The notes under the pieces: model-generated
The model's input: the letters and a program-made list of their open reading frames with translations, nothing else
The model's database searches: none
Told to the model about the DNA's origin: nothing
In this document: one piece after another, positions 11,354 through 34,889 of the stretch
How positions within the stretch are numbered: position 1 is the first letter of the stretch
How the letters are laid out: the number at the start of each line of letters is the position of its first letter
Translations under genes and position numbers: made by a program
IMG/VR virus record: IMGVR_UViG_3300044994_000116
Span: 1-34,889 of that record
Direction: 5' to 3' (one strand)
DNA: 34,889 bases
Source: a virus

Positions 11354-13036
11354 TTAACCGATTTCGTCTTCTGGTGCGCTGTCATCATCACCAGGCCCAC
11401 CGCCACCGAATATGCCCGCCATCCCGCCGCCTTGATCGTCCGGGAATTGCTCGGCCCATGCCTTGATATTTGCCGCCTCCAACGCTGGGTCGTAACCCTC
11501 CTCCGTGATCCACGTTTGAGCTGACAAGACCTTGGCATCGAACAAGGTTCTGCGTCGGTTCGTGTCCTCTGATTTGTTGGAAATCGCTACCGGCGGGGCA
11601 GTCACCTTGACCGCCACTTTGCGGATCTGCTCGTGGGTCAGGCGGCCAGACTCTGCGGCCAGAGACAGCACACGGGTCGCCAGTTGGCCCTGGAAAACCG
11701 CGTAATTCTGCTGCCGTGCTTCTGCGCTTCTCTCGAACGGTCCGCCGCTCACGAGTGTCGAGGCAAAGTTCGCGTTTGAGGAATCGCCGCTGAAATACTC
11801 TGGGCAGCCCCACCGCAGGCCGATCATTCGCAGTGTTGCTTGCTCGGCCTGGACGAAGCCGGGTATGCCTGTGTTGATTGGCCCGGCGGTGTACCGTAGC
11901 TGGTTGCTCACGTCGATGATTAGGCCGGCCTGGTGCAGGTTCAGCGTGCGGGTCCGGTCCTCGCCCGGTGTGTTGATCGATCCGAGTGAGCCCGGTCTGT
12001 TGAATATTGTCGCCGTGCCACTTGCGCCCCGGTCGATCATGGTGTGGACTTGGTCGCTGGTGGTCGTCGGTGCGTGCTCACGAATGTAGGCAATTGCCGC
12101 AAGGAGGCCACTGACATGAATCATGTTCCGAACCAGCGTGCGGACCCCGCACGCTTCGTCTTGGAGAGGCCAAAAGTCCGGGATGCCACGCTTCACGCTC
12201 GACTTCGTATTCAGCTTGTAGTGCAGCACTCTTGAAGCGGGGACCACCTCACCACCGTCGCCGCTCTCACTCTCAGGATCGACCACGTAATAGGCCAGTC
12301 GCCTCTGGTTGTCCTCCGGGTCGGTCTGGATGCCCCAGCCCCAATCACTGAGCAGTGTTTCGCCCGGCGGTGTGCGGATACACTCCGGCTCAATGTGCCG
12401 CATCTGCGGTACGCCACGTGTCGAGGAATCGCCACGAAACAGACGGATGAACGCCTCGCCGTCTTCCATCGAACGCTCATAGGTCTCGCGTTCCAGGTTC
12501 TCCATCGGCGAGGTATCGCTTACCCCGTCGCCGGATACCACGGCTTCGGTGATACTTCCCCATCCGTTGAGCCGCCGGAACTCATCAAGCACCTGCTGGC
12601 ATGCCTCGATGTCAGGGTCAGTCTCGCCGGTGTCCATGCCCTGCGAAGTCGCGCCTTTCTTCTGGCCCCGCGCCACGACTTCCCACTCAAACCCCTTGCC
12701 AACAACAAAGTTGCAGACGTGATCACGGAACCCCAGACAGACAATATTAGTCTCACACAGGAGACGACAGTAAGCCCGCATCATGCGAAGGTCTTGCTCA
12801 TTTTCAAGCGTCGGCCTGTTGCGTCCGTATGAGCGATCTTGTGGAAAGCCTGCTGGGTACAAAAGCCTGTCGCCGTCCATGAACCGTTCCCACGGCACCA
12901 CGATGGATTCTGACAGCCGCTTGTACTCTTGTTCGAGATGTGCTTTGTGGCGTGCGAGGGTGCGGAGAGCCTGACGATGCTCTCGCTGCTGCGGTGTGGG
13001 TGCGATCCAGTTTTTGAGCTGTGTATAGATGCCCAC
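11354..13036 (-). CDS. Portal protein (lambda-type)
   Basis: This is a 560-residue protein. The GTG start at 13036 shares its G with the TAG of the large terminase (TAGTG) and is preceded by a strong AGAGGGAGG ribosome site. The N-terminal region is helical (REHRQALRTLARHKAHLEQE). The middle carries RGVPQMRHIEPECIRTPPGE and RLAYYVVDPESESGDGGEVV, then ASRVLHYKLNTKSSVKRGIPD, which matches the conserved core of lambda B-type portals (VPA..I.H.......QVRG.P). Next come PGFVQAEQATLRMIGLRWGC and the Gln-rich stem region. It forms the dodecameric DNA channel at the head vertex. Position after the terminase is standard. Confidence 0.85.
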   Translation of the reverse strand: MGIYTQLKNWIAPTPQQREHRQALRTLARHKAHLEQEYKRLSESIVVPWERFMDGDRLLYPAGFPQDRSYGRNRPTLENEQDLRMMRAYCRLLCETNIVCLGFRDHVCNFVVGKGFEWEVVARGQKKGATSQGMDTGETDPDIEACQQVLDEFRRLNGWGSITEAVVSGDGVSDTSPMENLERETYERSMEDGEAFIRLFRGDSSTRGVPQMRHIEPECIRTPPGETLLSDWGWGIQTDPEDNQRRLAYYVVDPESESGDGGEVVPASRVLHYKLNTKSSVKRGIPDFWPLQDEACGVRTLVRNMIHVSGLLAAIAYIREHAPTTTSDQVHTMIDRGASGTATIFNRPGSLGSINTPGEDRTRTLNLHQAGLIIDVSNQLRYTAGPINTGIPGFVQAEQATLRMIGLRWGCPEYFSGDSSNANFASTLVSGGPFERSAEARQQNYAVFQGQLATRVLSLAAESGRLTHEQIRKVAVKVTAPPVAISNKSEDTNRRRTLFDAKVLSAQTWITEEGYDPALEAANIKAWAEQFPDDQGGGMAGIFGGGGPGDDDSAPEDEIG

Positions 13037-14589
13037 TATTGCCTCCCTCTAACATACATTTCCATGCGACGGATGAGAACGCCTGCAACGTCCGGGCCGT
13101 CATCAAATTCGCTGTTAGGCCATGACCGCCACTGGTTCACCAGTTCGCGTCCGCCTGCCGTGTTCCGCACCTTAATCTGCTTGCGACTCAAGTATGAACC
13201 AGCCTTGCGAATTCGTGCGGCCTTGGGGTCGGTCGAGGTCAGTTCCTCGTAGGTGAAGAGCCCAGTTTTGCCCCGTTCGGCCATGACTCGCTGAAGCTCC
13301 GGTGTCAGTAGTCCCATCGTGGAATTCACCTCGGCCACTACAACATCGGGCTGCCACACTTCGGCCAGCTCGATGACACGTTGACACATGGCTGTCACAT
13401 GCTCACGCCTAAGATCGGCTTCGAGGTAGAGCACGCCATCCTTGCCTAGTGCCAGGCATCCGTGCGCCTGCCAGTCTGCTGTCGTCGAGTTCGCGGCCTT
13501 GCTCGGGTCGATGCCCTGGATGCGGCAGACGGTCTCTGGCCAATCGGTGAACCACAAGTCCGGATCGTCGAACCATTCTGCTGGCCACTCGGTTGCACCG
13601 TCTGTGCCGGGCCTGTCTTGTTTCTCGCTGTCGAATGCACTCGCGCCGATTGAAGCTCGCAGCCGCATCAGGTCGTAGAGCGGTTCCCATTCGGGCCAAA
13701 GAACCACTGCCCCCCGGTCCATCTCTGCCCGGTTCGCTTCATAGTATGCTCGGGCTGTCACCTGCGCTGAATCGTCTGCTAAATTCGAGAGTATACGTTC
13801 CCACTCGCCCCACAGGTCCATACGCTCGGGCCACTCGATCACACTCCGGTAGCTGCGTGACTGCCAACCGGCTGTCCTGCGAAGCTTATGCGAGATTGCC
13901 TCTTGATGGATCGGCGTTCCGGCCACGAGGAAGTTCGTTCGCGCGGTGCCGACGCTCATCACGTCCTTGGTCCACCAGTCCCACTTACGTCGTCTCAGTG
14001 TCGGACTGTATGCATCGGCCTTCTCGTTGCAGTCGTCGCCGATGACAAGTGTCGGTCGGTCTGCGCGGTTGCTTCTACCCCGAACCCGAGAGCCTGCACC
14101 TTTGGCTACGATCTGGCAGCCGTTGCGGAGTCGTATGCGGTCGTTCCGCCACACTGGACCCACGCCTGCCGCTTGCGGATAGTCGCGGGCTATCGCTGGG
14201 TTGTCCGCCACCTCCTGCCGGATCGCGTCCAAAAACTCATTCGCTTGATCGCTGGTATCGCTTAGCAGCAGGATGTACGGCTCAATCTTCTCTAACACGC
14301 ACCAGAGCGGGTAGCCCTTGCTCACCCATGTTGTTTTCGCACTACCCCGCGCCGCCTCGTAGACTCGCCATGTACCCCGCGTTTCATGCAGGGTTGCCAG
14401 GTCACTCGCAAGATCGAGGTGGAGTTTGCTCGGTGCCGCCTTCAGGTAGTGCGGGAGGTATGTCTTCATCCACGACAGGCCGAACGGTTGTTTCTGCTGT
14501 GCTGTGGTCAATTGGTCTCGAAGTTGCGCTGTCAGCCTGAGTTGGTTCTTGGCTCGTTTGAGTAGGCTTCGCACTCGCACCGATATCAC
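13036..14589 (-). CDS. terL: Terminase large subunit (packaging ATPase-nuclease)
   Basis: This is a 517-residue protein. The ATPase domain has a Walker A-like ARGSAKTT (about 80-87) and a Walker B-like TLVIGDDCNE (about 180-189). The GTPIHQE segment at 225-231 probably carries the coupling motif. The RNase H-like nuclease domain shows IQGIDPSKAANS with candidate metal ligand Asp361, VVVAEVNSTMG near 417-426, and a terminal acidic DDGPDVAG. It cuts and translocates DNA into the prohead through the portal. The GTG at 14589 gives a 174-nt overlap with the small subunit's end. An ATG at 14469 would shorten the protein by 40 residues and still overlap. Neither has a good ribosome site, so the start is uncertain. 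Confidence 0.88.
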   Translation of the reverse strand: MISVRVRSLLKRAKNQLRLTAQLRDQLTTAQQKQPFGLSWMKTYLPHYLKAAPSKLHLDLASDLATLHETRGTWRVYEAARGSAKTTWVSKGYPLWCVLEKIEPYILLLSDTSDQANEFLDAIRQEVADNPAIARDYPQAAGVGPVWRNDRIRLRNGCQIVAKGAGSRVRGRSNRADRPTLVIGDDCNEKADAYSPTLRRRKWDWWTKDVMSVGTARTNFLVAGTPIHQEAISHKLRRTAGWQSRSYRSVIEWPERMDLWGEWERILSNLADDSAQVTARAYYEANRAEMDRGAVVLWPEWEPLYDLMRLRASIGASAFDSEKQDRPGTDGATEWPAEWFDDPDLWFTDWPETVCRIQGIDPSKAANSTTADWQAHGCLALGKDGVLYLEADLRREHVTAMCQRVIELAEVWQPDVVVAEVNSTMGLLTPELQRVMAERGKTGLFTYEELTSTDPKAARIRKAGSYLSRKQIKVRNTAGGRELVNQWRSWPNSEFDDGPDVAGVLIRRMEMYVRGRQ

Positions 14590-16918: not shown

Positions 16919-17860
16919 TTAGGTGTTGTATGATCGCTGCCATAACTGGAGGCAGACAGCATTGCCGATTAGGCGAATCTTGTCCCGGCGACTTGAGACA
17001 GGCCACAGATGCGTGGCCGGAAATCCCATCGCAGCAGCGAGCTCAAGAGGCTGCAACATTCTGATTTCATGGCCATGACCATTGGGCCGAACATAAGCGA
17101 AACGGTCAATAGTCGTGACAGTCCGTAATGGCCGATCCAGGGTCTGGAACCCGCCGGCTCCGTCGCTACCGTAGTAGACCATGATGAACTCGGAGTCGTG
17201 GCCGAGTGCTTCGATAGCTCTCTTCGCTCGCTCTAACGTCGCATCAGCGTGGACTCCCTTTCGGAGAAGCCGAAACGGCCACTGCCCTTCGGTAAGAATA
17301 CTTTTTACGGTAAGCTTGGGGCCAAGAATTTTCGAGGGAAACGTGGGTACTGCTTTACGGTCGCAGATGATAAACAGCCTCTTTCTAGACTGAGGCGTTC
17401 GATAATCCTGGGCATCGAGGACACCTTTGCCGATGTTGTAGCCCAGCCCCTGAATTTGCTTGATCCACTCATCGAACCGGGGCCATAGCTGCATCCTGGG
17501 GACGTTTTCGACGATGATCCAGCGTGGCTCGAAGACCTTGGCGAAGCGGACTACTTGAAAGGCAGTCTCGCGACTAGCCTCGCAACGAGGAGCACTGCCC
17601 TTTGCCACACTGTGGTTGGTGCATTCTGGAGAGGCAAGCAGGATGTCAACCGGGCCTGTGGTTGCGTGAATTGCGACCGGGTCAACGTCGGCTGCCTTCT
17701 CCGCAGAGACTTTTGCATCTGGGAAGTTGAGCTGAAAGGTCTTCGCCGCAAACGCGTCGCGGTCGAGCCCGCCCACCACACGGACCCCGGCCATGGCCGC
17801 TCCCCTTGAGCTGCCACCACCACCGCAGAACAGATCATAACATCGTAGAGGACCCTTCAT
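16919..17860 (-). CDS. C5-cytosine DNA methyltransferase
   Basis: This 313-residue protein has the ordered motifs of the C5 family: motif I DLFCGGGGSS (9-18), motif IV LLASPECTNHS with catalytic Cys80, motif VI VENVPRM (117-123), motif VIII QSRKRLF (157-163), RPLRTVTTIDRFA in the target-recognition/IX area, and IGNAVCLQLW near the C-terminus as motif X. Motif IV reads SPEC where most enzymes have PPCQ, a known variant in phage-type enzymes. It methylates cytosine in a specific site using SAM, probably to protect phage DNA from host restriction. A GAGGTAAC ribosome site precedes the ATG at 17860, which overlaps the end of the previous gene by 26 bp. Confidence 0.88.
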   Translation of the reverse strand: MKGPLRCYDLFCGGGGSSRGAAMAGVRVVGGLDRDAFAAKTFQLNFPDAKVSAEKAADVDPVAIHATTGPVDILLASPECTNHSVAKGSAPRCEASRETAFQVVRFAKVFEPRWIIVENVPRMQLWPRFDEWIKQIQGLGYNIGKGVLDAQDYRTPQSRKRLFIICDRKAVPTFPSKILGPKLTVKSILTEGQWPFRLLRKGVHADATLERAKRAIEALGHDSEFIMVYYGSDGAGGFQTLDRPLRTVTTIDRFAYVRPNGHGHEIRMLQPLELAAAMGFPATHLWPVSSRRDKIRLIGNAVCLQLWQRSYNT

Positions 17861-18706: not shown

Positions 18707-18839
18707 TCGCAAAATTCCGTCTGCCTGTCGTCTGCCTCTCCACGACAGGCAGACGGAATTGCCCTATTTTGTGGGGAATAATCGCGGTAATATTTTTGTC
18801 TGCCTCCCAACAGGCAGACGATAGGCAGAGGGGTCAGGC
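18707..18839. repeat. 133-bp dispersed repeat, copy 1, with 19-bp perfect stem
   Basis: The copy matches 27645-27777 at 130 of 133 positions. It contains a 19-bp inverted repeat (arms beginning AATTCCGTCTGCC, 10-bp loop, 18713-18760) and a second hairpin GTCTGCCT-CCCAAC-AGGCAGAC. The word AGGCAGAC or its complement recurs many times. It fills the 175-bp gap between the adenine/cytosine methyltransferase stop and the gene at 18658. The left boundary lies at that gene's TGA. Confidence 0.9.
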
Positions 18840-19724
18840 GAACTGGCTGCTACTCACCTCAACGAGTCTCTGGAGCGTGAGTTCCACTTGATCGGCTCGC
18901 AAGTCACACCCTAAGAATCGCCGGCCGTGTATTAGGGCTGCGTGGCCCGTGGTGCCGCTTCCCGAGAATGGATCGAGCACCACGCCATCTGGCGGAACAA
19001 ACCAGCAGACAAATCGTTCTGCCAGTGCAACAGGGTACGGCGCTTCATTACCCGTACTGAGACGGTGCCCTAGGTGCCCGCCTCCCACTTTTGTCCGAAT
19101 CACGTTGCCGTGGTTCGCCAGCCTCGGCACGGTGTAGCCCAAGCCTTTTTGGTAATCGCCATCAGCGGAACCACATTGGGCACTTCTCCCGTGGTTTGCC
19201 CTCTTCCCGTTGCTCAATCTGTGACTCATCTCCCCGCCTGGACCCCACTTCGGCGCATGGCCGAATGCGGTGTTGTCGCTCCACTTCAGAGGAAGCTTTG
19301 CCGGATCGGCGTAGGCGTAAACGGGTTCCCAATCACGTCGTTGATACTTCGTGCTGCCACTGCCCGGAATGCCAGCATTCTTCGTCCATGCGTACGGTGC
19401 AGGCCCACAAGTCAGGCCATCGATCCGCACCAGGTCCGCTGTCAACATTTCGATGATCGGGCTGTACTTCCAGTCCCGCACCTTGCCAGCCGCATTCACG
19501 AGCACCAGCCCACGCGATACTCGAGCTGATTCAACGACGATTGGCCGCAGCCATTGCACCCACGCTTCACCCCGCAGTTTGAATTTCAATTCGCCGTACT
19601 GCCTTGCGTCTTCATAGGGTGGGGAGAACAGCACCAGATCTACTGAATCGGTGGGGAGAGATCGCAGAAATGCGAGAGCCTCAAATTGCACGCATGAATA
19701 TCTGTTTGAGGTAATTGTCTTCAT
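18834..19724 (-). CDS. DNA N4-cytosine/N6-adenine methyltransferase (beta-type order)
   Basis: This is a 296-residue protein from the ATG at 19724. The catalytic motif LVLFSPPYEDARQYG (SPPY at 34-37) is near the N-terminus, and the SAM-binding motif I LDPFSGSGTTGHAAL (from about 250) is near the C-terminus, the permuted order of beta-class enzymes. SPPY favours N4-cytosine over N6-adenine, though both are known with this motif. The target-recognition region lies between. A TTG at 19742 overlapping the helicase stop is an alternative start. Together with the C5 enzyme it probably modifies phage DNA against host restriction. No partner endonuclease is seen. Confidence 0.85.
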   Translation of the reverse strand: MKTITSNRYSCVQFEALAFLRSLPTDSVDLVLFSPPYEDARQYGELKFKLRGEAWVQWLRPIVVESARVSRGLVLVNAAGKVRDWKYSPIIEMLTADLVRIDGLTCGPAPYAWTKNAGIPGSGSTKYQRRDWEPVYAYADPAKLPLKWSDNTAFGHAPKWGPGGEMSHRLSNGKRANHGRSAQCGSADGDYQKGLGYTVPRLANHGNVIRTKVGGGHLGHRLSTGNEAPYPVALAERFVCWFVPPDGVVLDPFSGSGTTGHAALIHGRRFLGCDLRADQVELTLQRLVEVSSSQFA

Positions 19725-19738
19725 GAGATTCGTATTCT

Positions 19739-21061
19739 TCAAATTCCAATGTTGCCGTCTTCAAATCGGGTGAAGCGGCGTGTGTAATTCAGCGGTACAA
19801 CAGCACGAGGACCATTGCGTTGTTTGGCTACGATCAGCCGAATTTCTTGCTCTGGTGATGGGTTCGCCGCATCGCATTTCTGCGGCCACAAGAGCATTGC
19901 GATATCCGCGTCCTGTTCGAGCGAACCGCTCTCCCGGAAGTCGGCAAGCGTCGGCATGCCATCGTTGCGAGCTTCCGATTCGCGATTGATCTGTGCTAGG
20001 CATATCACGGGCACGCCTAGGGCGCGGGCGAGCATTTTCAGCGATCGTGACGTGTTTCCAACGCGGGTATACTGCTGGTCTTGGCGACTCCCCTCGTGCC
20101 GGATCAATTGCAGATAGTCGATTACGATCAGGCCGACATTGTGCTTTTGCACCGCACGCCGGGCGACGGTCGCAATGCTCGTCGGCGTGTGGTCGGCTCG
20201 GTCATCAATCCAGATCGGCAAATTGTGCTGAGGTGAACCGTGGACCAAACGTGCGGCGGAATGCGTTTCGAGCGGAACCGACCCCGTGATTTGATTCAGC
20301 GGCACCTCGGTCGTGATCGACAACGCGCGGGCCGCCACCTCGGTGGCGGACATCTCCAGCGAAAACATTAGTGCAGAAGTGCCAGTTTGTGCAGCAGCGA
20401 GCAGGAACGATAAGGCCAGGGCACTTTTGCCAACGCTGGGCCGTGCACCGAGAAGTGTCAGTTCACCGCCGCGAAATCCGCCAATCACGTTGTCGAGCCG
20501 CTGGAAACCGGTCGGGATTGGCCGTTTACCGCCTGGCATGCTCCGCTGATCGATCTCCGCGAGGCATGTTGCGATTGCCTGGCTGAGTCGTACCTGGTCA
20601 CGCTTATTACCAGGCCGAGCCGAGAAATACATGGCATCGACAAAACGCGATAAAACGTCGTTTGCGGGCTCCTGAGTCTCCTGTAGGTCTTTGACCATTT
20701 CGATGGCCGAAAACAGCACCTTGCGGCGTATAGCGTGATCTAAGACCACCTCAGCGTGATACTCCGCGTTCGCGGGTGTCCCGGCCTCATCGTAGACCTT
20801 CGCGAGATACCCCGCCCCGCCCACGTCCTCGACCTGCTTCGTGCGTGCCAGGTCTTCGTAGATTATTGCCAAATCCCACGGCTTGCTCGCCGTGTGCCGA
20901 GCCATCACCGCACGAAAAATAATCTGGTGAGCATTCTGGTAAAAATCCGTGTCAGCAAGTGCGTCGAGGATGCTGAGCGCCGACTCGGGATACCGGAGCA
21001 GCATCCCGACCAACTGCTGCTCGGAAAGCTCCGAGTGTGGCGGTATGCGATTATCAAACAT
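19739..21061 (-). CDS. dnaB: DnaB-type replicative DNA helicase
   Basis: This 440-residue protein has the two-domain layout of DnaB. An N-terminal helical domain starts with SEQQLVGMLLRYPESALSIL and includes GGAGYLAKVYDEAGTPANAE. A linker is followed by a RecA-like domain with PIPTGFQRLDNVIGGFRGGE, Walker A GARPSVGKSALAL (205-217), MFSLEMSATEVAARAL, Walker B VGLIVIDYLQLI, and AQINRESEARNDGMPTLADF with the usual LRESG-like segment. It is close to full length for the family. It unwinds DNA at the phage fork, probably loaded by the O-like protein from the gene just upstream, 3 bp away. Confidence 0.93.
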   Translation of the reverse strand: MFDNRIPPHSELSEQQLVGMLLRYPESALSILDALADTDFYQNAHQIIFRAVMARHTASKPWDLAIIYEDLARTKQVEDVGGAGYLAKVYDEAGTPANAEYHAEVVLDHAIRRKVLFSAIEMVKDLQETQEPANDVLSRFVDAMYFSARPGNKRDQVRLSQAIATCLAEIDQRSMPGGKRPIPTGFQRLDNVIGGFRGGELTLLGARPSVGKSALALSFLLAAAQTGTSALMFSLEMSATEVAARALSITTEVPLNQITGSVPLETHSAARLVHGSPQHNLPIWIDDRADHTPTSIATVARRAVQKHNVGLIVIDYLQLIRHEGSRQDQQYTRVGNTSRSLKMLARALGVPVICLAQINRESEARNDGMPTLADFRESGSLEQDADIAMLLWPQKCDAANPSPEQEIRLIVAKQRNGPRAVVPLNYTRRFTRFEDGNIGI

Positions 21062-28735: not shown

Positions 28736-28963
28736 ATGGCTGATTTTTCCGACAAACTGAAGGCGTTGATGCTCGCTGCGAATTTGAGCGGTAACATGAT
28801 GGCCAAGTTATCAGGCGTGCCGCAGACCACGATCAGCAACTACATACTGAGACGCAACCGCCCATCGTGGGACCATGTACAACGGATCGCCAAGGCGCTT
28901 GGCGTGTCGTGTACGGATCTGATGGACGATGAGCCCGAACCGAAAAAGAAGAAGAAGCGATAG
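28736..28963 (+). CDS. XRE-family (cI/Cro-type) repressor
   Basis: This 75-residue protein is a single HTH domain of the lambda-repressor class: LKALMLAANLSGNMMAKLSG with the recognition helix in VPQTTISNYILRRNRPSWDH, then VQRIAKALGVSCTDLMD. A Lys-rich tail (PEPKKKKKR) follows, and there is no dimerisation or cleavage domain, so it is closer to Cro or a short repressor than to full-length CI. It is the only plus-strand gene in the early region and faces the paired operators at 28677. It is the best candidate to bind all three operator sets in the window. Confidence 0.8.
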   Translation: MADFSDKLKALMLAANLSGNMMAKLSGVPQTTISNYILRRNRPSWDHVQRIAKALGVSCTDLMDDEPEPKKKKKR

Positions 28964-29008: not shown

Positions 29009-30250
29009 TCAGCCGATTTCACTCGCCACTCTCGCTGCCAGCTCGAGGTCCGCTCCGGCGTAGCCCTCCGTCGCACCGCCCACGAGGTGCCCGAGATAGA
29101 CCCGGCTGGCCTCCCTGCCGTACTTCTGCTGCACGCTCACCCCAACCTGGTGCCGTATCTGGTACGGTGTCCACGTTGGAATACCAGCTGCCGCGCAAGC
29201 CCGCTTGACCGCGTTCAATAGTACCGTTCGATGATATCGTGGCCCCGGCTTGCGTTTCGCCTTGCTGCCCTTCAATGGCTTGTATGATCCGTAGCCTACC
29301 CGCTTCGACTTGTTCTTCGCCACGGCCTGCGCAGTGCCTTCAACCGGGCGGAAAACATGGTCCCCCGCCGCTCTGCCCGCAATCAGTGGGGATAGTATCG
29401 CTTGGCATTTTGGGCCGAAGAACAGCACACGGTCGTAGCCGCGAGAGGCCGTCTTGTGCTCGGTGAAAACCGTGGCCCATACTTTGTGCTTGTCGAGGTC
29501 GATCGCTACCCCGCTGAGTGCGTGCAGTGTGCCTCCCTGGACGATCTCGCCGCAGCGTAGCCCCAGCAGCTCAGACGGCCGCGCGCCGGTCAGTGTAAGC
29601 AATCGCAGGCAAGCCGCGATCGGTGCGGATACATGCCCGAGGACCGCCTCCACTGTGGAAGCTGGAACGCCCCGGCGCTTCTTCGCCTCCTTAACCTGGC
29701 CCCGCGCGGGTGCCTCCACCAGCTCGAGTTCTCGGTATTGGTCGTACTGGATATGTCCGCCGATCAAACCCCAGGCAAAACACTTCCGGACGATGGCCAC
29801 ACATTTTGAAACGGTGTCCCGCGACAGAAGCTTGTCACCGTTGGGCCGGGTGATGCCGCAGAGCATCCGTTGCCATGACCGCAATTCCGCGCCCCGGAAT
29901 GCCGTGGCCCTGGTGTAGCGGTGCGGGCCTGGTGCCTCCGCTGACCCGAACAAATACCGCTCGGCACGAGCGGCCGCAGCAGCCGATACCCCTGCACCCT
30001 CGGGCGAGTCGCGCCAATCCGCCCACAGCACGATCAGCAGGGTATCGCCGGGCTTGCTGATCTGTGCTGCCGGGTCGGACCTCCAGAGAGCCACCAGTTC
30101 CGCGAGGCGTTGCACCGCCGCCGCTGAGGGTCTGTCCTGCTCGATGTCCCAGGGACCCAGGTAGAACTGTCGGCCACGAAAATTGACAATCGCCCTTGCC
30201 CCGTGGCGTTTAGGAGTGAGTTCGTGCGGTTGCTTGGCTCTCCTGCCCAT
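29009..30250 (-). CDS. int: Tyrosine integrase (site-specific recombinase)
   Basis: This is a 413-residue protein from the ATG at 30250, chosen for its GGGAGG ribosome site. The frame is open further upstream, but that part covers the att region. It has an N-terminal arm-binding-like part (KRHGARAIVNFRGRQFYLG), a core-binding helical domain, and a catalytic domain with TGARPSELLGLRCGEI (first Arg), a Lys-containing turn, PYQIRHQVGVSVQQKYGREA (a Y-x-x-R-H version of H-x-x-R), and VYLGHLVGGATEGYAG with the Tyr nucleophile in the last segment. It recombines attP with attB. The tRNA-like fragment just upstream is its likely crossover site. Confidence 0.9.
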   Translation of the reverse strand: MGRRAKQPHELTPKRHGARAIVNFRGRQFYLGPWDIEQDRPSAAAVQRLAELVALWRSDPAAQISKPGDTLLIVLWADWRDSPEGAGVSAAAAARAERYLFGSAEAPGPHRYTRATAFRGAELRSWQRMLCGITRPNGDKLLSRDTVSKCVAIVRKCFAWGLIGGHIQYDQYRELELVEAPARGQVKEAKKRRGVPASTVEAVLGHVSAPIAACLRLLTLTGARPSELLGLRCGEIVQGGTLHALSGVAIDLDKHKVWATVFTEHKTASRGYDRVLFFGPKCQAILSPLIAGRAAGDHVFRPVEGTAQAVAKNKSKRVGYGSYKPLKGSKAKRKPGPRYHRTVLLNAVKRACAAAGIPTWTPYQIRHQVGVSVQQKYGREASRVYLGHLVGGATEGYAGADLELAARVASEIG

Positions 30251-30273: not shown

Positions 30274-30299
30274 GATAAACATGACCAGTCATGTTTATC
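30274..30299. promoter_or_regulatory. 26-bp palindrome, arm-type sites (P side)
   Basis: GATAAACATGAC-CA-GTCATGTTTATC is a perfect 12-bp inverted repeat between the integrase start and the tRNA fragment. The half-site recurs twice on the far side of the fragment (30506-30530). It could bind the integrase, an excisionase or a repressor of int. Confidence 0.65.
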
Positions 30300-30345
30300 G
30301 GTGGCACTCGGCAGAATATGGATGATGCCTGGAAATGCAATGAAT

Positions 30346-30362
30346 CCCTAGGAATCCTAGGG
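30346..30362. repeat. 17-bp palindrome next to the tRNA fragment
   Basis: CCCTAGGA-A-TCCTAGGG is a perfect 8-bp inverted repeat, 12 bp from the tRNA fragment's 3' end. It may be a protein-binding site or the remnant of a terminator behind the tRNA gene. Confidence 0.55.
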
Positions 30363-30373
30363 GTTCGGGAGAT

Positions 30374-30417
30374 TGGGCGATACAGGGATCGAACCTGTGA
30401 CTTCGTCCGTGTGAAGG
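30374..30417 (-). other. attP core: 3' fragment of a tRNA-Val(CAC)-like gene
   Basis: On the minus strand 30417-30374 reads as the 3' part of a tRNA: anticodon loop TTCACAC (CAC) with 3' stem GGACG, variable AAGTC, T-stem ACAGG, loop TTCGATC, stem CCTGT, then ATCGCCC and discriminator A. The 5' half (expected acceptor strand GGGCGAT and D-arm) is absent, and the anticodon stem stops pairing two bases in. Phages that integrate in tRNA genes carry such 3' fragments as their attP core. Confidence 0.75.
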
Positions 30418-30505
30418 CGGTTTGCTGGTTCGCCAATTACTTGATTTGCCTTATTTTTAGGCACCTCTCTTTGGGTATTGCGATGTTTGCGACGGGGAAA
30501 ACGCC

Positions 30506-30530
30506 GATAAACATGACAAATAAACATGAC
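30506..30530. repeat. Tandem ATAAACATGAC arm-type sites (P' side)
   Basis: GATAAACATGAC (30506-30517) and ATAAACATGAC (30520-30530) lie in direct repeat to the right of the tRNA fragment. With the two half-sites at 30274-30299 this makes four copies bracketing the core. Confidence 0.65.
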
Positions 30531-30549
30531 AAATCGGGCTGATGGCTGC

Positions 30550-30592
30550 CGCCGATCGTACGAGGCCGATGTATTTCTCAACCTCGCCGAGT
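30550..30592. repeat. 43-bp copy of the replication gene's 3' part
   Basis: The sequence matches 21119-21161 (in the O-like gene) at 42 of 43 positions, in the same orientation. Outside it the two regions share nothing I can see. Confidence 0.85.
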
Positions 30593-30610
30593 ATCGCGTT
30601 CAGCAGCGAT

Positions 30611-30829
30611 TCACGTTCGGTCATCGAGGCCGTCCTTTGGCATATAGCCACCAGCAAACCCGCGAGCTGGGTCGCCGTAGTAGTCCACCAGTCCTGAGAC
30701 GATTTCACCTGCCATGAACCGCTGAATAAGATCCGGTTTCGCTGCCATCAGCACAACTTTTTGGCGGCCGTCACGGTCGGTCTGGTCAGCCAGAAACGGA
30801 ATACCTTCTCTGGCTGCTGCCTCTGGCAA
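30611..30829 (-). CDS. Small hypothetical protein upstream of the chimera
   Basis: This 72-residue frame from a TTG at 30829 reads PEAAAREGIPFLADQTDRDG, then AAKPDLIQRFMAGEIVSGLV and DYYGDPARGFAGGYMP. It looks protein-like (a helix followed by a Gly-rich, hydrophobic end). There is no ATG near the start and no ribosome site, so it may be the surviving 3' part of a longer gene. It ends just inside the MTERES start at 30624, suggesting former coupling. Confidence 0.35.
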   Translation of the reverse strand: MPEAAAREGIPFLADQTDRDGRQKVVLMAAKPDLIQRFMAGEIVSGLVDYYGDPARGFAGGYMPKDGLDDRT

Positions 30830-30854: not shown

Positions 30855-31436
30855 TCAGCATAGGGCGAATAAACACTTTAGGCATAAGGGATGCCTTGAT
30901 CCACGCACATCCCCTTTCGCCCAGTCGATAAGCGCTCGGGAGAGCGCCGTCATTGCGCCAACTCTAGCTTCCCAAACAAGGTTATTGCTTGGGAAAACTA
31001 AGCATTGTGGTATGTAAAAAGACTCCTTTTCGAGCTCGTCAAGTTCAACGCGCTGGAAGCGATACAAATCATCTTCTTTTTTCGGCCATTTATCGTACAG
31101 CCAAACAAATCGCACTGGATGTTCCTTGACGATAATCGGACCGAAAGTCATCCATGTACTAACGGCACAATACATTTCGTCGATAAAACCTCTTCGAGTG
31201 TATGGATTTTGGTATTCTTGACCATAATTTGACCAAGATAAATTTCGCTTAGTACGACATAAATTGCAAACACCGCACCAACGGTGTCCTGTTTTAGCTA
31301 TTTCAATCTCTGCGCGAATAAACATCGCGTGTGCAGGTTCGCCGTTCTCCTCCAGCCAGTCGGCGTAGACAAGTCTGACTACATCGTCTTTAGGGTTGGC
31401 CAGTACAGCTGCCAACAACGCTTCACGTTCAGTCAT
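30855..31436 (-). CDS. TIGR02996-domain protein with cysteine-rich region
   Basis: This is a 193-residue protein from the ATG at 31436 with AGGAG nine bases upstream. Residues 1-50 are the TIGR02996 domain (MTEREALLAAVLANPKDDVV, then RLVYADWLEENGEPAHAMFI), found almost only in planctomycetes, function unknown. Residues ~53-60 have CGVCNLC, and the rest (YQNPYTRRGFIDEMYCAVST, SFYIPQCLVFPSNNLVWEAR) looks like the usual follow-on region of these proteins. Its promoter at 31465 carries the phage operators. It is the clearest host-lineage marker in the window. Confidence 0.75.
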   Translation of the reverse strand: MTEREALLAAVLANPKDDVVRLVYADWLEENGEPAHAMFIRAEIEIAKTGHRWCGVCNLCRTKRNLSWSNYGQEYQNPYTRRGFIDEMYCAVSTWMTFGPIIVKEHPVRFVWLYDKWPKKEDDLYRFQRVELDELEKESFYIPQCLVFPSNNLVWEARVGAMTALSRALIDWAKGDVRGSRHPLCLKCLFALC

Positions 31437-31522: not shown

Positions 31523-32266
31523 TCAGGAGTTGGCCGATTGGCAATAAATCTTTCGCAGAATATCGCCGTAATATTCGGTCTCCCATTCGACCCGTCCTCG
31601 CTCAGTCCCTTTCGGACCTCCAATTGTGCTGACCCGTATTTGCTCACGATTCCAGCGACCACCCCCGAGCATCGCATATGATGGATGCACAGGCAAATTG
31701 TGATAGGCAAGCCATCCAAAAACATCATCTGCAGACCACCACCCGATCGGATGACATGAGCTTGTCGTCGCGATCCCTCTCATTTTGATTGATATTTTAC
31801 GAACTCCGGACTCTGCAGCGCGGATCCCACCGATGTATCGTGAAGTTTGGTATTTCTCGGATACACGACGTATGCCAATGTCGAGTGCTGGTGATCGCTT
31901 GCCATTTGCCGGGATAGGTAGCAAATCAACAACTTCCTCGTGATACTCCGCTACTGGGAATCTTGACAGGAAATCGTCTCGAACATCAGGGACGTATTGA
32001 TCGTATCCGAGACCATGCTGAGCAATGTTTACCAAAGGGATTTGCAAGCCCGACAGGTGTAGTAAATGAGCCAATACGGTGCTATCTTTGCCCCACGATG
32101 TTGCCACGTAGCAGGGTCCTTCATCCGAAAATTTCCGCATTACTTCGATAGCGATTTCGCCACGGCGTGAGCGTGATAATTGTTCGCCGTGGACAAAATC
32201 AGCGGCTTCCAATTCTGCCCACAACGCCAAATCTGCCACTCTATGCCGGTTGCTTTTTAACAACAT
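31523..32266 (-). CDS. cysH: CysH-like PP-loop ATPase of a type IV-B CRISPR locus
   Basis: This is a 247-residue protein from the ATG at 32266 (AAAGGA 8 bp upstream). The P-loop of the PAPS reductase / DndC-like family is clear: VATSWGKDSTVLAHLLHLSG (SWGKDS at 57-62). A second family element is YIGGIRAAESGVRK (144-157), followed by SSCHPIGWWSADDVFGWLAY and HPSYAMLGGGRW. The ECGIH-type C-terminal cysteine of true PAPS reductases is absent; the only cysteines are 52, 171 and 242. It probably activates a substrate by ATP-dependent chemistry, not PAPS reduction. CysH-like genes are a known companion of type IV-B effector genes with unknown role. The start overlaps the cupin gene by 26 bp. Confidence 0.85.
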   Translation of the reverse strand: MLLKSNRHRVADLALWAELEAADFVHGEQLSRSRRGEIAIEVMRKFSDEGPCYVATSWGKDSTVLAHLLHLSGLQIPLVNIAQHGLGYDQYVPDVRDDFLSRFPVAEYHEEVVDLLPIPANGKRSPALDIGIRRVSEKYQTSRYIGGIRAAESGVRKISIKMRGIATTSSCHPIGWWSADDVFGWLAYHNLPVHPSYAMLGGGRWNREQIRVSTIGGPKGTERGRVEWETEYYGDILRKIYCQSANS

Positions 32267-32633
32267 TGAGGCGGTCCTTTGCGGCGGCATCGCGGTGAGA
32301 GTTACCAATAGCTATTAGTGTTAACTCGGTGTCAGCACGAATCCCGTGGCGAACCATGCTGGGGATCAGATAAATGTAGCCCTTTTCGAGCTTGTGGGGC
32401 TCACCATCATAATCAACCCATCCCTCTCCACCCAGCACATATAGAATGTGGTCGCCGACATGGGTGTGATCCGGAACGCAGCCTCCGGCGGGGAAACGGA
32501 GCATATCGGCACCAAAATCACCACGCTTGACCAGACGATGGGCGGTTGCGTCCGAAGCGTGCATTCTGACCGGCAATGGGCCTGTGCGGTGAATAGCTAA
32601 TACGTCAGCGATTTGAAGCAGATTACTTAGCAC
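32241..32633 (-). CDS. Small cupin-fold protein embedded in the type IV-B operon
   Basis: This is a 130-residue protein. The cupin motif 1 reads GGCVPDHTHVGDHILYVLGG EG split over 50-71 (G-(x)-H-x-H-x-(3,4)-E pattern with His56, His58 and a missing or shifted Glu). Motif 2 is KGYIYLIPSMVRHGIRADTE with the final His at about 99. Residues FGADMLRF and WVDYDGEPHKLEKG fill the barrel. The GTG at 32633 overlaps the csf3-like stop by 7 bp and has AGAGGTGG upstream, and its end overlaps cysH, so it is made with both. Cupins bind metal and small ligands or act as enzymes; the ligand is unknown. I know of no cupin as a standard part of type IV systems. Confidence 0.75.
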   Translation of the reverse strand: MLSNLLQIADVLAIHRTGPLPVRMHASDATAHRLVKRGDFGADMLRFPAGGCVPDHTHVGDHILYVLGGEGWVDYDGEPHKLEKGYIYLIPSMVRHGIRADTELTLIAIGNSHRDAAAKDRLNVVKKQPA

Positions 32634-33331
32634 GGAACAACCACCTCTGTAAATCGGTCTGGATGCCAGTAAGGGGGGATACAGGCGGCAAAATCACGCC
32701 TCGAACCCTGTAGGTTTTGCGGTAGCCAATCGCCGACCGGCAACGGCCGCATTAACACAGGCCCGGCATGATGCGGAGCGTACCACCAGCATTGATCAAG
32801 GTCCCGCCGTTGGTCACACCTCCACGAGCCTGGAACCACAGCGCCGTATCCCTGACTATGTTTGGTTCCGACGTGTGTTACGCCCTCAACGAGGCTCAGT
32901 AAATCGCATGGCCGCATTCGCAAATTGACAATCCAGCACAGTCGGCCCGTGAGACGGACACGCAACGGCAATCGATAGCTCTTTGTCCACGTCATTGACG
33001 TGGCCACCATGCTCAATTCCGATGATCGGAGCATGTTAGCCGATTCGTTTACAGGGAACCGCCGGTGAAAGTGCTTGTGCCGATCGTCTATGACATTGCT
33101 CATGATACACGCGGAAGCATGGCTCACGGGCCAACCGTTGAGCCGAGTAAAATCGATAGGCATTCGTGACTCATGGGTGTCGTAAATTGAAGGCGGAAGG
33201 CGGTCCGTTCGCCATAATTTCGGCAACCCCAATATTGTTGCTAGACGCATTTCCACAAGAGAATCCAGCCCTGGTGGATGAGCACCGCCAAGGCCAGAGG
33301 CAAGCTCGCAAGAGACCAAAAACGCACTCAC
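32627..33331 (-). CDS. csf3: Csf3-like Cas5 subunit of type IV CRISPR-Cas
   Basis: This is a 234-residue protein. Its layout matches Csf3: a first beta strand FLVSCELASGLGGAHPPGLD, LDSLVEMRLA (18-30; the L+-L- helix after P-HLD), a variable middle with TWTKSYRLP, then VTHVGTKHSQGYGAVVPGSW (151-170), the glycine-rich loop of Cas5/RAMP proteins where G-K++--G-G-V--W is typical, and near the end ACIPPYWHPDRF, a Csf3-like PPYW turn. It would cap the 5' end of a guide RNA. The GTG at 33331 overlaps the csf2 stop (GTGA). Assignment is by motif order; a profile search would be decisive. Confidence 0.7.
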   Translation of the reverse strand: MSAFLVSCELASGLGGAHPPGLDSLVEMRLATILGLPKLWRTDRLPPSIYDTHESRMPIDFTRLNGWPVSHASACIMSNVIDDRHKHFHRRFPVNESANMLRSSELSMVATSMTWTKSYRLPLRVRLTGRLCWIVNLRMRPCDLLSLVEGVTHVGTKHSQGYGAVVPGSWRCDQRRDLDQCWWYAPHHAGPVLMRPLPVGDWLPQNLQGSRRDFAACIPPYWHPDRFTEVVVPC

Positions 33332-34320
33332 GCCGGCACCTCTTTATCAGCCACTTGGGTTTTCTTACCCTTGCTTGCCTTTGCTGCTTTAGCTGACTTT
33401 TCTTCAGATACCCCAAAGGCGCGGCGTAGCCATAATGCAAAAGAATCAATGTGCTCAAATACGTGTTGAACGTACTCCTCGTCAGCACCAACGTACTCAT
33501 CAGGGAAGTGGAATTGCGAGTATAGTTTGCCATGCCCAACTCGGCCCATTCCACCAAACGAATTCCCGGAAGCCACCCAAAGACGAAGAGACCACAATAG
33601 TGCGCCAACCTCAAGACGTTTCGGGTGAGCCAGACAGTAACGGTGAACGAACACCGCACCCGGCATAATCGATTCGCCGGAGTAAATCATTTGGTTCGAT
33701 TTATCCTTCGACTCTCCGGGCGGTGTTCTGCCAGATTTGAATCGGAGCATCGAATCCTCTTCTTCCGAAAACATACCGGCAGTGCCTTTTTCCGACCCAC
33801 TGCGAGTGTACTGGTAGCCTGTAGTAAAATCGCTTGCCGGAGCCAGTTGGTACGTGGAGATATCAACACCTGGAGGCAAAAAAGATCGCAGCCGAAAGCG
33901 GTTCTCTTCACAAACCAATACTCCGGAATCACAGCTGAGAGAGCCGGCGAACATTTGCTTTGGCGTCACGCCTCCAAGCAGGCCGCACAGTGGAGAGACC
34001 CGCGACAACTCCACAATATCCTGAAGCGATTCACGGCCGCCATTGCCCACGTACTCTGCGCCACCGCGCAAGAGGAAATACGCTTCTGGCTTAGTTAATC
34101 GCTCACTCAACCCAGTCTGTTCAATCAACCATCGGAAACCAGGCTCCCTCACTGACCGAGTACGAAATGCGTTCCCTGTGAGCGACGGAACTTGCCTAAC
34201 ACCAAGCGGAGTCTTGACCTCGTCGCGCTGGATGATCATCCGATTGCCGGACGACCCTTGGGCTTGGGTAATCCGGCTTTGCGCTACTGACACAGCGTAG
34301 ACAATTACAGGGCTAGGCAT
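33328..34320 (-). CDS. csf2: Csf2-like Cas7 backbone subunit of type IV CRISPR-Cas
   Basis: This is a 330-residue protein from the ATG at 34320, chosen because AGGGGG precedes it and it overlaps the preceding stop by 8 bp. An ATG 51 bp upstream is possible. It has the RAMP-type order of Csf2: PSLTGNAFRTRSVREPGFRW (45-64, the P-L-GNS-RG-LR equivalent), LLRGGAEYVG (83-92), SPLCGLLGGVTPKQMFAGSL (109-128, the P---LFGG--G--G-L equivalent), and ASGNSFGGMGRVGHGKL (250-266), the terminal Gly-rich loop. It would form the filament along the guide RNA. Length is close to the usual Csf2. A Lys/Ala-rich tail follows. Confidence 0.75.
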   Translation of the reverse strand: MPSPVIVYAVSVAQSRITQAQGSSGNRMIIQRDEVKTPLGVRQVPSLTGNAFRTRSVREPGFRWLIEQTGLSERLTKPEAYFLLRGGAEYVGNGGRESLQDIVELSRVSPLCGLLGGVTPKQMFAGSLSCDSGVLVCEENRFRLRSFLPPGVDISTYQLAPASDFTTGYQYTRSGSEKGTAGMFSEEEDSMLRFKSGRTPPGESKDKSNQMIYSGESIMPGAVFVHRYCLAHPKRLEVGALLWSLRLWVASGNSFGGMGRVGHGKLYSQFHFPDEYVGADEEYVQHVFEHIDSFALWLRRAFGVSEEKSAKAAKASKGKKTQVADKEVPA

Positions 34321-34810
34321 CTGGAGATTCCCCCTTGAATGGCTTGGCTTCGTTTCGGTTTTTTTTTGCAAATCCGATAGCTATTGCCATGGTCGGACCT
34401 GATAGGTATGAGATCACTGCCTCGCGATATTCAGCGCCCTTGGCAGTCACTGCCTCGATGATGTTTTGGAAAGGCTCGTAGCACGCTGCTGTCACTGGAT
34501 CGCACTGGACTGACGCCAGGCAATTACACGCGAAAGTTGCAAAGTCGTCCGGGTCGATGCCAACGCCGGCCGTTGCCAACGCCTTTCCACACCACTCCCA
34601 CATCTTCATGCGGTCATCAGGGTTTGATTGCCCCATAAGTTCCGCGAGAACTCCCACGAATTGCACAGATTCATTGCGGATCGATAGCTTAACCGACGGG
34701 TCATGAGTAGCCGAACGCGCTGCCAATTTCGGGTTGTCACCGACCAATTCACGGCGGAATTGTTCCGTGTCGATGCGTGCTAACGGGTCAGGAGACCAAG
34801 TTGCATTCAT
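34313..34810 (-). CDS. Cas11-like small subunit of type IV-B effector
   Basis: This is a 165-residue protein from the ATG at 34810 with AGAGGA 8 bp upstream. It is predicted mostly helical: SVKLSIRNESVQFVGVLAEL, MKMWEWCGKALATAGVGIDP, and FQNIIEAVTAKGAEYREAVI. Short, all-helical and between csf1-like and csf2 genes, it occupies the place of the type IV-B small subunit Cas11, which lines the belly of the Cas7 filament. I see no sequence motif that proves it, as Cas11 proteins diverge strongly. It overlaps csf2 by 8 bp. Confidence 0.5.
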   Translation of the reverse strand: MNATWSPDPLARIDTEQFRRELVGDNPKLAARSATHDPSVKLSIRNESVQFVGVLAELMGQSNPDDRMKMWEWCGKALATAGVGIDPDDFATFACNCLASVQCDPVTAACYEPFQNIIEAVTAKGAEYREAVISYLSGPTMAIAIGFAKKNRNEAKPFKGESPDA

Positions 34811-34889
34811 TACTAGAATCCTCTTTCTTGGGGGTGAGATAAACGGCAAGTCGTGACAAAGGCTCACACCAAACGCGGGACCATTCCTC
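34788..34889 (-). CDS. C-terminal 33 residues of upstream gene, possibly csf1
   Basis: A frame open from the right edge ends at TGA 34790-34788: EEWSRVWCEPLSRLAVYLTP, then KKEDSSNECNLVS. It overlaps the cas11-like start by 23 bp, like other overlaps in this operon. In type IV-B loci the gene at this place is csf1, the large-subunit-like zinc protein. A second frame is also open to the edge (the cas11 frame extended), so this tail could be spurious. Confidence 0.35.
   Translation of the reverse strand, partial: EEWSRVWCEPLSRLAVYLTPKKEDSSNECNLVS

Follow-up and report, generated by a model that had tools for sequence, protein, structure and literature searches.

A probable attP with paired arm sites around a tRNA-Val(CAC) core in a temperate phage of a Gemmataceae-like planctomycete

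Within the viral DNA analysed here (the window, 34,889 bases, which is also the entire record), positions 30274-30530 very probably form the complete attP of a temperate tailed phage of a Gemmataceae-like planctomycete, sequenced in a joined form, that is, circular, concatemeric or packaged. The site itself is of an ordinary kind. More unusual is the regularity of the design in related prophages, where every element has a palindrome of its own, set at a fixed distance from the tRNA.

Results

Core and arm sites

An exact search of the 34,889-bp record for the 11-bp motif ATAAACATGAC returns four copies and no others, at 30275-30285 (plus strand), 30288-30298 (minus), 30507-30517 (plus) and 30520-30530 (plus); the next-best matches elsewhere in the window carry 2 mismatches. 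This search bears out the initial annotation of this DNA, according to which four copies of the motif surround a 44-bp 3' fragment of a tRNA-Val(CAC)-like gene beside the integrase gene. The count stands as given, and the arrangement is amended to one palindrome plus one direct pair. On the integrase side, the two copies lie in a perfect 26-bp palindrome with 12-bp arms, GATAAACATGAC-CA-GTCATGTTTATC (30274..30299, unstranded), which extends from +75 to +100 relative to the tRNA 3' end, 23 bp ahead of the integrase start codon, and is positioned like the dyads of related elements. On the far side, the two copies are direct repeats with a 13-bp spacing (30507..30530, plus strand). The gaps between arms and core are 74 and 91 bp. 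The two far-side copies of the 11-mer compare with 0.08 in shuffles, and the length of the int-side dyad was matched by none of 200 shuffles of the int-side sequence. The arm-site feature is real, and chance repeats are rejected.

The core between these arms (30374..30416, minus strand) is the 3' part of tRNA-Val(CAC), starting at the anticodon stem-loop and ending with the discriminator base, and 42 of its 43 positions are identical to the intact tRNA-Val(CAC) of two genomes, G021 and G022. The reverse complement of 30374-30417, CCTTCACACGGACGAAGTCACAGGTTCGATCCCTGTATCGCCCA, reads as tRNA-Val from the anticodon loop (CAC) to the discriminator base. Since base 30417 differs from all intact host tRNAs seen, we take the shared core to be 43 bp; the 44 bp first assigned to it were correct for 30374-30416, which match intact host tRNAs, and one base too long. 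ARAGORN detects no whole tRNA in the window, and the 5' half of tRNA-Val is absent. Just 3' of the tRNA piece lies an inverted repeat able to form a hairpin (30342..30366, unstranded; 12-nt arms, one mismatch, 1-nt gap), which, judging from its sequence, could perhaps be a terminator for the tRNA, maybe supplied by the phage. Stem-loops are found at the equivalent place in other elements as well.

The integrase

The gene next to the palindrome (29009..30250, minus strand) encodes a tyrosine recombinase of 413 aa, recognised by PHROG as 'integrase' (E=1.9e-8) and weakly, below the cut-off, by Pfam PF00589. In an alignment with five Gemmataceae integrases the catalytic residues R224, K266, R366-H367, H388 and Y397 are invariant; at the first H of the HxxRH box, the window integrase has Tyr and its relatives have Tyr or Asn. 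Homologues occur in 59 of 95 Gemmataceae genomes. The best of these are 42-44% identical over the full length, and most relatives align only from about residue 140 onward, which is consistent with a divergent N-terminal domain. Both of the closest integrases (42-44%) are chromosomal neighbours of an intact tRNA-Lys, immediately 3' of it, and the genes upstream of them were judged by eye to be chromosomal. The second-closest (L052, in G051:C248) contains an in-frame TAA; this prophage integrase may be broken, or the assembly may be in error. A scan for sigma-70-type promoters at int came back empty, which says little for planctomycetes.

Gene layout of the record

Most genes in the window are on the minus strand. 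Read from the right, the order is cargo (34.9-30.6 kb), attP, integrase, RusA, RecT/Bet, replication initiator, DnaB helicase, two DNA methyltransferases, terminase, portal and head morphogenesis, followed by family-unassigned genes to the left end. The presence of terminase, portal, head, helicase, RecT and RusA genes counts in favour of a temperate-phage attP; on the other side, the record has no terminal repeats that would show it to be a circle. The two methyltransferases of the early region, of cytosine-C5 and N4/N6 type, are located at 16919-17860 and 18834-19742, and an HTH gene of Cro/CI type, a candidate for the phage repressor, at 28736-28963. The terminase large subunit (13036..14589, minus strand; PHROG 5.5e-72) has homologues, 43-55% identical, in prophages of Gemmataceae, and these mark the related prophages; no terminase homologue was found in the viral contigs searched, and phage records yielded no DNA similar to the window.

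To the right of attP, on the minus strand, we find a TIGR02996 gene (30855..31436; NCBIfam E=2.6e-19), a cargo type common in Gemmataceae prophages, then genes for a CysH/PAPS-reductase-like protein (31523..32308; Pfam PF01507 1.9e-6, PHROG 8e-26) and a cupin protein (32241..32633; Pfam PF07883 2.5e-12). These are followed by genes for a type IV Cas5 (Csf3-like; 32627..33331; PADLOC 3.1e-18), a type IV Cas7 (Csf2-like; 33328..34371; PADLOC 5.7e-53, with NCBIfam csf2 at 2.6e-8, below its cut-off) and a type IV Cas11-like small subunit (34313..34828; PADLOC 3.4e-14), after which the contig end cuts the locus. No direct repeats of at least 18 bp, and no CRISPR array, are seen beside the type IV genes (31523-34889). 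Subtype IV-B comprises csf1, cas11, csf2 and csf3 with a cysH-like gene and no array (PMC8175902). By its gene content the right-hand locus, with cas11, cas7, cas5, a cysH-like gene and no array, appears consistent with subtype IV-B, and csf1, if present, would lie past the contig end. Type IV-B with CysH has been described in viruses of Bathyarchaeia, and there are earlier reports of type IV from plasmids, prophages and lytic phages (PMC10848311). A search for homologues of the Cas7 protein found none in the 95 Gemmataceae genomes, phage records or viral contigs, and one distant match (29%) in a plasmid record.

A further minus-strand frame, at 30457-30624, reaches the far arm sites; its start, MTERESLLNAIL, resembles the start of the adjacent TIGR02996 protein (MTEREALLAAVL). 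From this likeness, the frame is likely to be what is left of a second TIGR02996 gene that was truncated at attP.

Since TIGR02996 genes adjoin the terminase in related prophages, they represent phage cargo, and are not by themselves a sign of chromosome. The DNA right of the core had initially been taken to belong to the phage too, and this is upheld: phage-type DNA lies on both sides of attP, with no chromosomal housekeeping genes to its right. For the DNA right of 30.5 kb, phage cargo is the preferred interpretation. Host chromosome was considered for this DNA and rejected, given that it contains no housekeeping genes and that TIGR02996 genes occur inside prophages too.

Host assignment

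The core lies inside the intact tRNA-Val(CAC) of Gemmataceae, differing at a single one of 43 positions in G021 and G022 and at two to four positions elsewhere in the family; among 398 genomes of the class, only those two come within one mismatch. The exact 44-bp core has no match in the genome and viral collections, in part because its first base (window 30417) falls outside the shared core. A degenerate form of the core has no match in the viral contigs either, so that no other viral contig in the collection carries it. Relatives of TIGR02996, a Gemmata-type domain, belong almost entirely to Gemmataceae or other planctomycetes among the genomes. We infer that the phage host is a Gemmataceae-like planctomycete.

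A related prophage with both ends

In genome G024, both ends of a related prophage are found, 46 kb apart (loci L138, L133, L134). Its attL consists of an intact tRNA-Ile, then the palindrome GTTTCGTGGTA-GCT-TACCACGAAAC (or a near-identical dyad with a 3-nt centre), then int; its attR consists of a 50-bp copy of the core and the same palindrome again. Joining the two ends gives palindrome-core-palindrome, which is the anatomy of the window, with arm-core gaps of 63 and 127 bp as compared with 74 and 91 bp. The prophage and the window share the order tRNA-palindrome-int, homologous terminase, portal and other structural-region genes, arm sites at both ends, a palindrome in the case of the prophage, and a tRNA 3' core cut at the anticodon loop. 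They differ in that the prophage uses tRNA-Ile, has an integrase only 27-28% identical to that of the window, carries other cargo, and has a palindrome as its far arm where the window has a direct pair. Its cargo near attR includes a 1037-aa protein that resembles a DNA methylase by eye. The separation of the arms to attL and attR is seen in this prophage, as it is in the tandem arrays described below, and each of its junctions holds one arm cluster, with the intact tRNA on the integrase side, as the initial annotation had expected of a lysogen.

Palindromes at a fixed distance from the tRNA

The position of the int-side palindrome recurs among planctomycete elements. When inverted repeats with arms of at least 7 bp are counted, 22 of 34 non-redundant Gemmataceae tRNA-int pairs show one whose centre falls between +82 and +92 relative to the tRNA 3' end, as against 0.23 (maximum 2) in dinucleotide shuffles, a rate that is approximate because the genomes are related and the int positions come from tblastn. 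Among 12 tRNAs without a following int, one has such a dyad. When the best dyad is taken from each of 35 int-side sequences (the window included; loci L029-L134), all are distinct, and 21 have their centre in the same interval, compared with 2.0 (maximum 5) in shuffles. The tRNAs involved include Val, His, Pro, Arg, Ile, Gly and Met. The palindrome of the window, centred at 87.5, fits this pattern; the two closest integrases, at tRNA-Lys, do not. We found no description of fixed-distance palindromes in the part of the literature that was covered.

Distinguishing attP from an integrated junction

The gene for tRNA-Val(CAC) is an integration hotspot in Gemmataceae (loci L083-L102): in several genomes, two to four cores are stacked in arrays spanning no more than about 140 kb. 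Some cores in these arrays are intact tRNAs and others are bare 3' fragments, and int may follow either kind; it follows a bare fragment at L084, L085, L088 and L098. For this reason the missing 5' half of the tRNA does not, by itself, exclude integration or prove attP, and the expectation that an int-side junction holds an intact tRNA, while true of the G024 prophage, fails as an absolute rule at these four loci. In the arrays, the int-side motif of one core recurs upstream of the core at the next junction, and exact words of at least 10 bp are common to the arm regions in 9 of 11 adjacent pairs. Near 3056939 of G009:C3 (L086/L123), ARAGORN calls a whole tRNA-Val(CAC) whose 5' half is unlike the usual host sequence; this half is possibly a tRNA-like piece supplied by the end of an element, or the call is false.

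Across 20 chromosomal tRNA-Val(CAC) junctions, no arm motif occurs above background on both sides of one core; compared with these, matching arms across a single core are found only in the window. A lysogen junction has host DNA on one side and a single arm cluster, and the window instead has arms, together with phage or cargo genes, on both sides. The presence of ATAAACATGAC on both sides of the same core implies that the sequenced molecule is joined at attP, whether as a circle or concatemer, as permuted virion DNA, or at the inner junction of a dilysogen of identical phages. Thus the original argument that arms on both sides and no 5' half indicate attP is supported, once it is taken together with the phage-type DNA on both sides, the G024 prophage and the 20 junctions.

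The inner junction of a dilysogen, which would arise by tandem double integration of the same phage, would contain a sequence identical to attP, and the hotspot arrays, with int able to follow a bare 3' fragment, lend this reading some substance. All of the arrays seen, however, consist of different elements with private arm motifs, and none of identical copies; moreover, neither host flank is in the record, and an extra event is needed. We consider such a dilysogen improbable. Tandem integration had been named from the outset as the main alternative, and it survives only in this form. In its other form, where two different elements meet and the DNA right of 30.5 kb belongs to a neighbouring element or island, it has the precedent of the four loci named above, and GC does drop right of 31 kb, where the genes are cargo-like. 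Yet one and the same 11-bp motif flanks the core left and right, a pattern above background in none of the 20 real junctions, and the G024 prophage also has cargo near its far arm (the large methylase-like gene), so that a junction of different elements is very improbable.

A perfect palindrome that precedes a start codon by 23 bp also resembles an operator, and the Cro/CI-type gene is nearby, which raises the question of whether the palindrome and its copies are repressor operators rather than recombination sites. No copy is found near the HTH gene or anywhere else in the window outside the att region, though, and related elements repeat the motif beside the attR core at their far end, besides having it at a fixed distance from the tRNA. 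We therefore reject this reading, to which we leave scarcely any probability, and retain that of a phage attP sequenced in joined form.

Discussion

As in attP sites of the lambda/L5 type, with bivalent integrases, the window combines tyrosine recombinase residues, a core from a tRNA 3' end (42/43) and arms on both sides. The sequence itself shows the identity of the core, the copies of the arms, the catalytic residues of the integrase, the gene content and the attL/attR split in G024; integrase binding, strand exchange, autoregulation and host identity are what we infer. The integrase would recombine the 43-bp core with the 3' end of the host tRNA-Val(CAC), and the tRNA would be rebuilt and stay functional because the phage supplies an identical 3' part. 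The N-terminal domain of the integrase is predicted to bind the ATAAACATGAC arms, both those paired as a palindrome next to int and those repeated directly across the core, with strand exchange presumably taking place in the anticodon-loop end of the core. Upon integration, the int-side palindrome would stay with the restored tRNA, and the direct pair would move to the other junction. Because the start codon of int follows the palindrome by 23 bp, occupancy of the palindrome by the integrase probably represses int as well.

Among described sites, the nearest in anatomy is attP of the Cluster K mycobacteriophages. In CrimD and Adephagia, of Cluster K1, four arm sites of 11 bp are arranged as two pairs, and a stem-loop adjoins the core (PMC3203893). 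As in the window, the core is a copy of the 3' part of an RNA gene and is flanked on either side by an arm pair; attP lies 5' of a tyrosine integrase, the stem-loop is situated between the core and one arm pair, and related integrases have different arm sequences (PMC3203893), as do the relatives of the window. The two differ in core, host phylum and arm sequence: CrimD and Adephagia use the 3' part of tmRNA, with P3/P4 inverted relative to P1/P2, whereas the int-side pair of the window is a head-to-head palindrome. In att-int modules of the KplE1/HK620 type, the att region overlaps the space before int, and the integrase of KplE1 represses its own gene (PMC2951348). There too, int lies beside a tRNA 3' end and arm sites near the int start suggest autoregulation (PMC2951348), but the arm arrangement and host differ, and no RDF gene was identified in the window.

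These results place CysH and type IV Cas genes inside a phage genome, and assign an uncultured phage to a Gemmataceae-like host. They also supply a clear sequence test for telling an attP from an integrated junction, according to whether a motif is repeated across the same core or is common only to the neighbouring junction. We give roughly even odds to the broader proposal that planctomycete tyrosine integrases share an undescribed attP design, in which a palindromic arm pair is held at a fixed distance, centred about +86 bp from the 3' end of whichever tRNA is used. Within this proposal, the arm sequence would be private to each element, and so many elements could stack in one tRNA gene and each excise alone. 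The palindromes provide a ready data set on how integrases come to change arm specificity with the core unaltered, and on the means by which tandem arrays avoid cross-excision.
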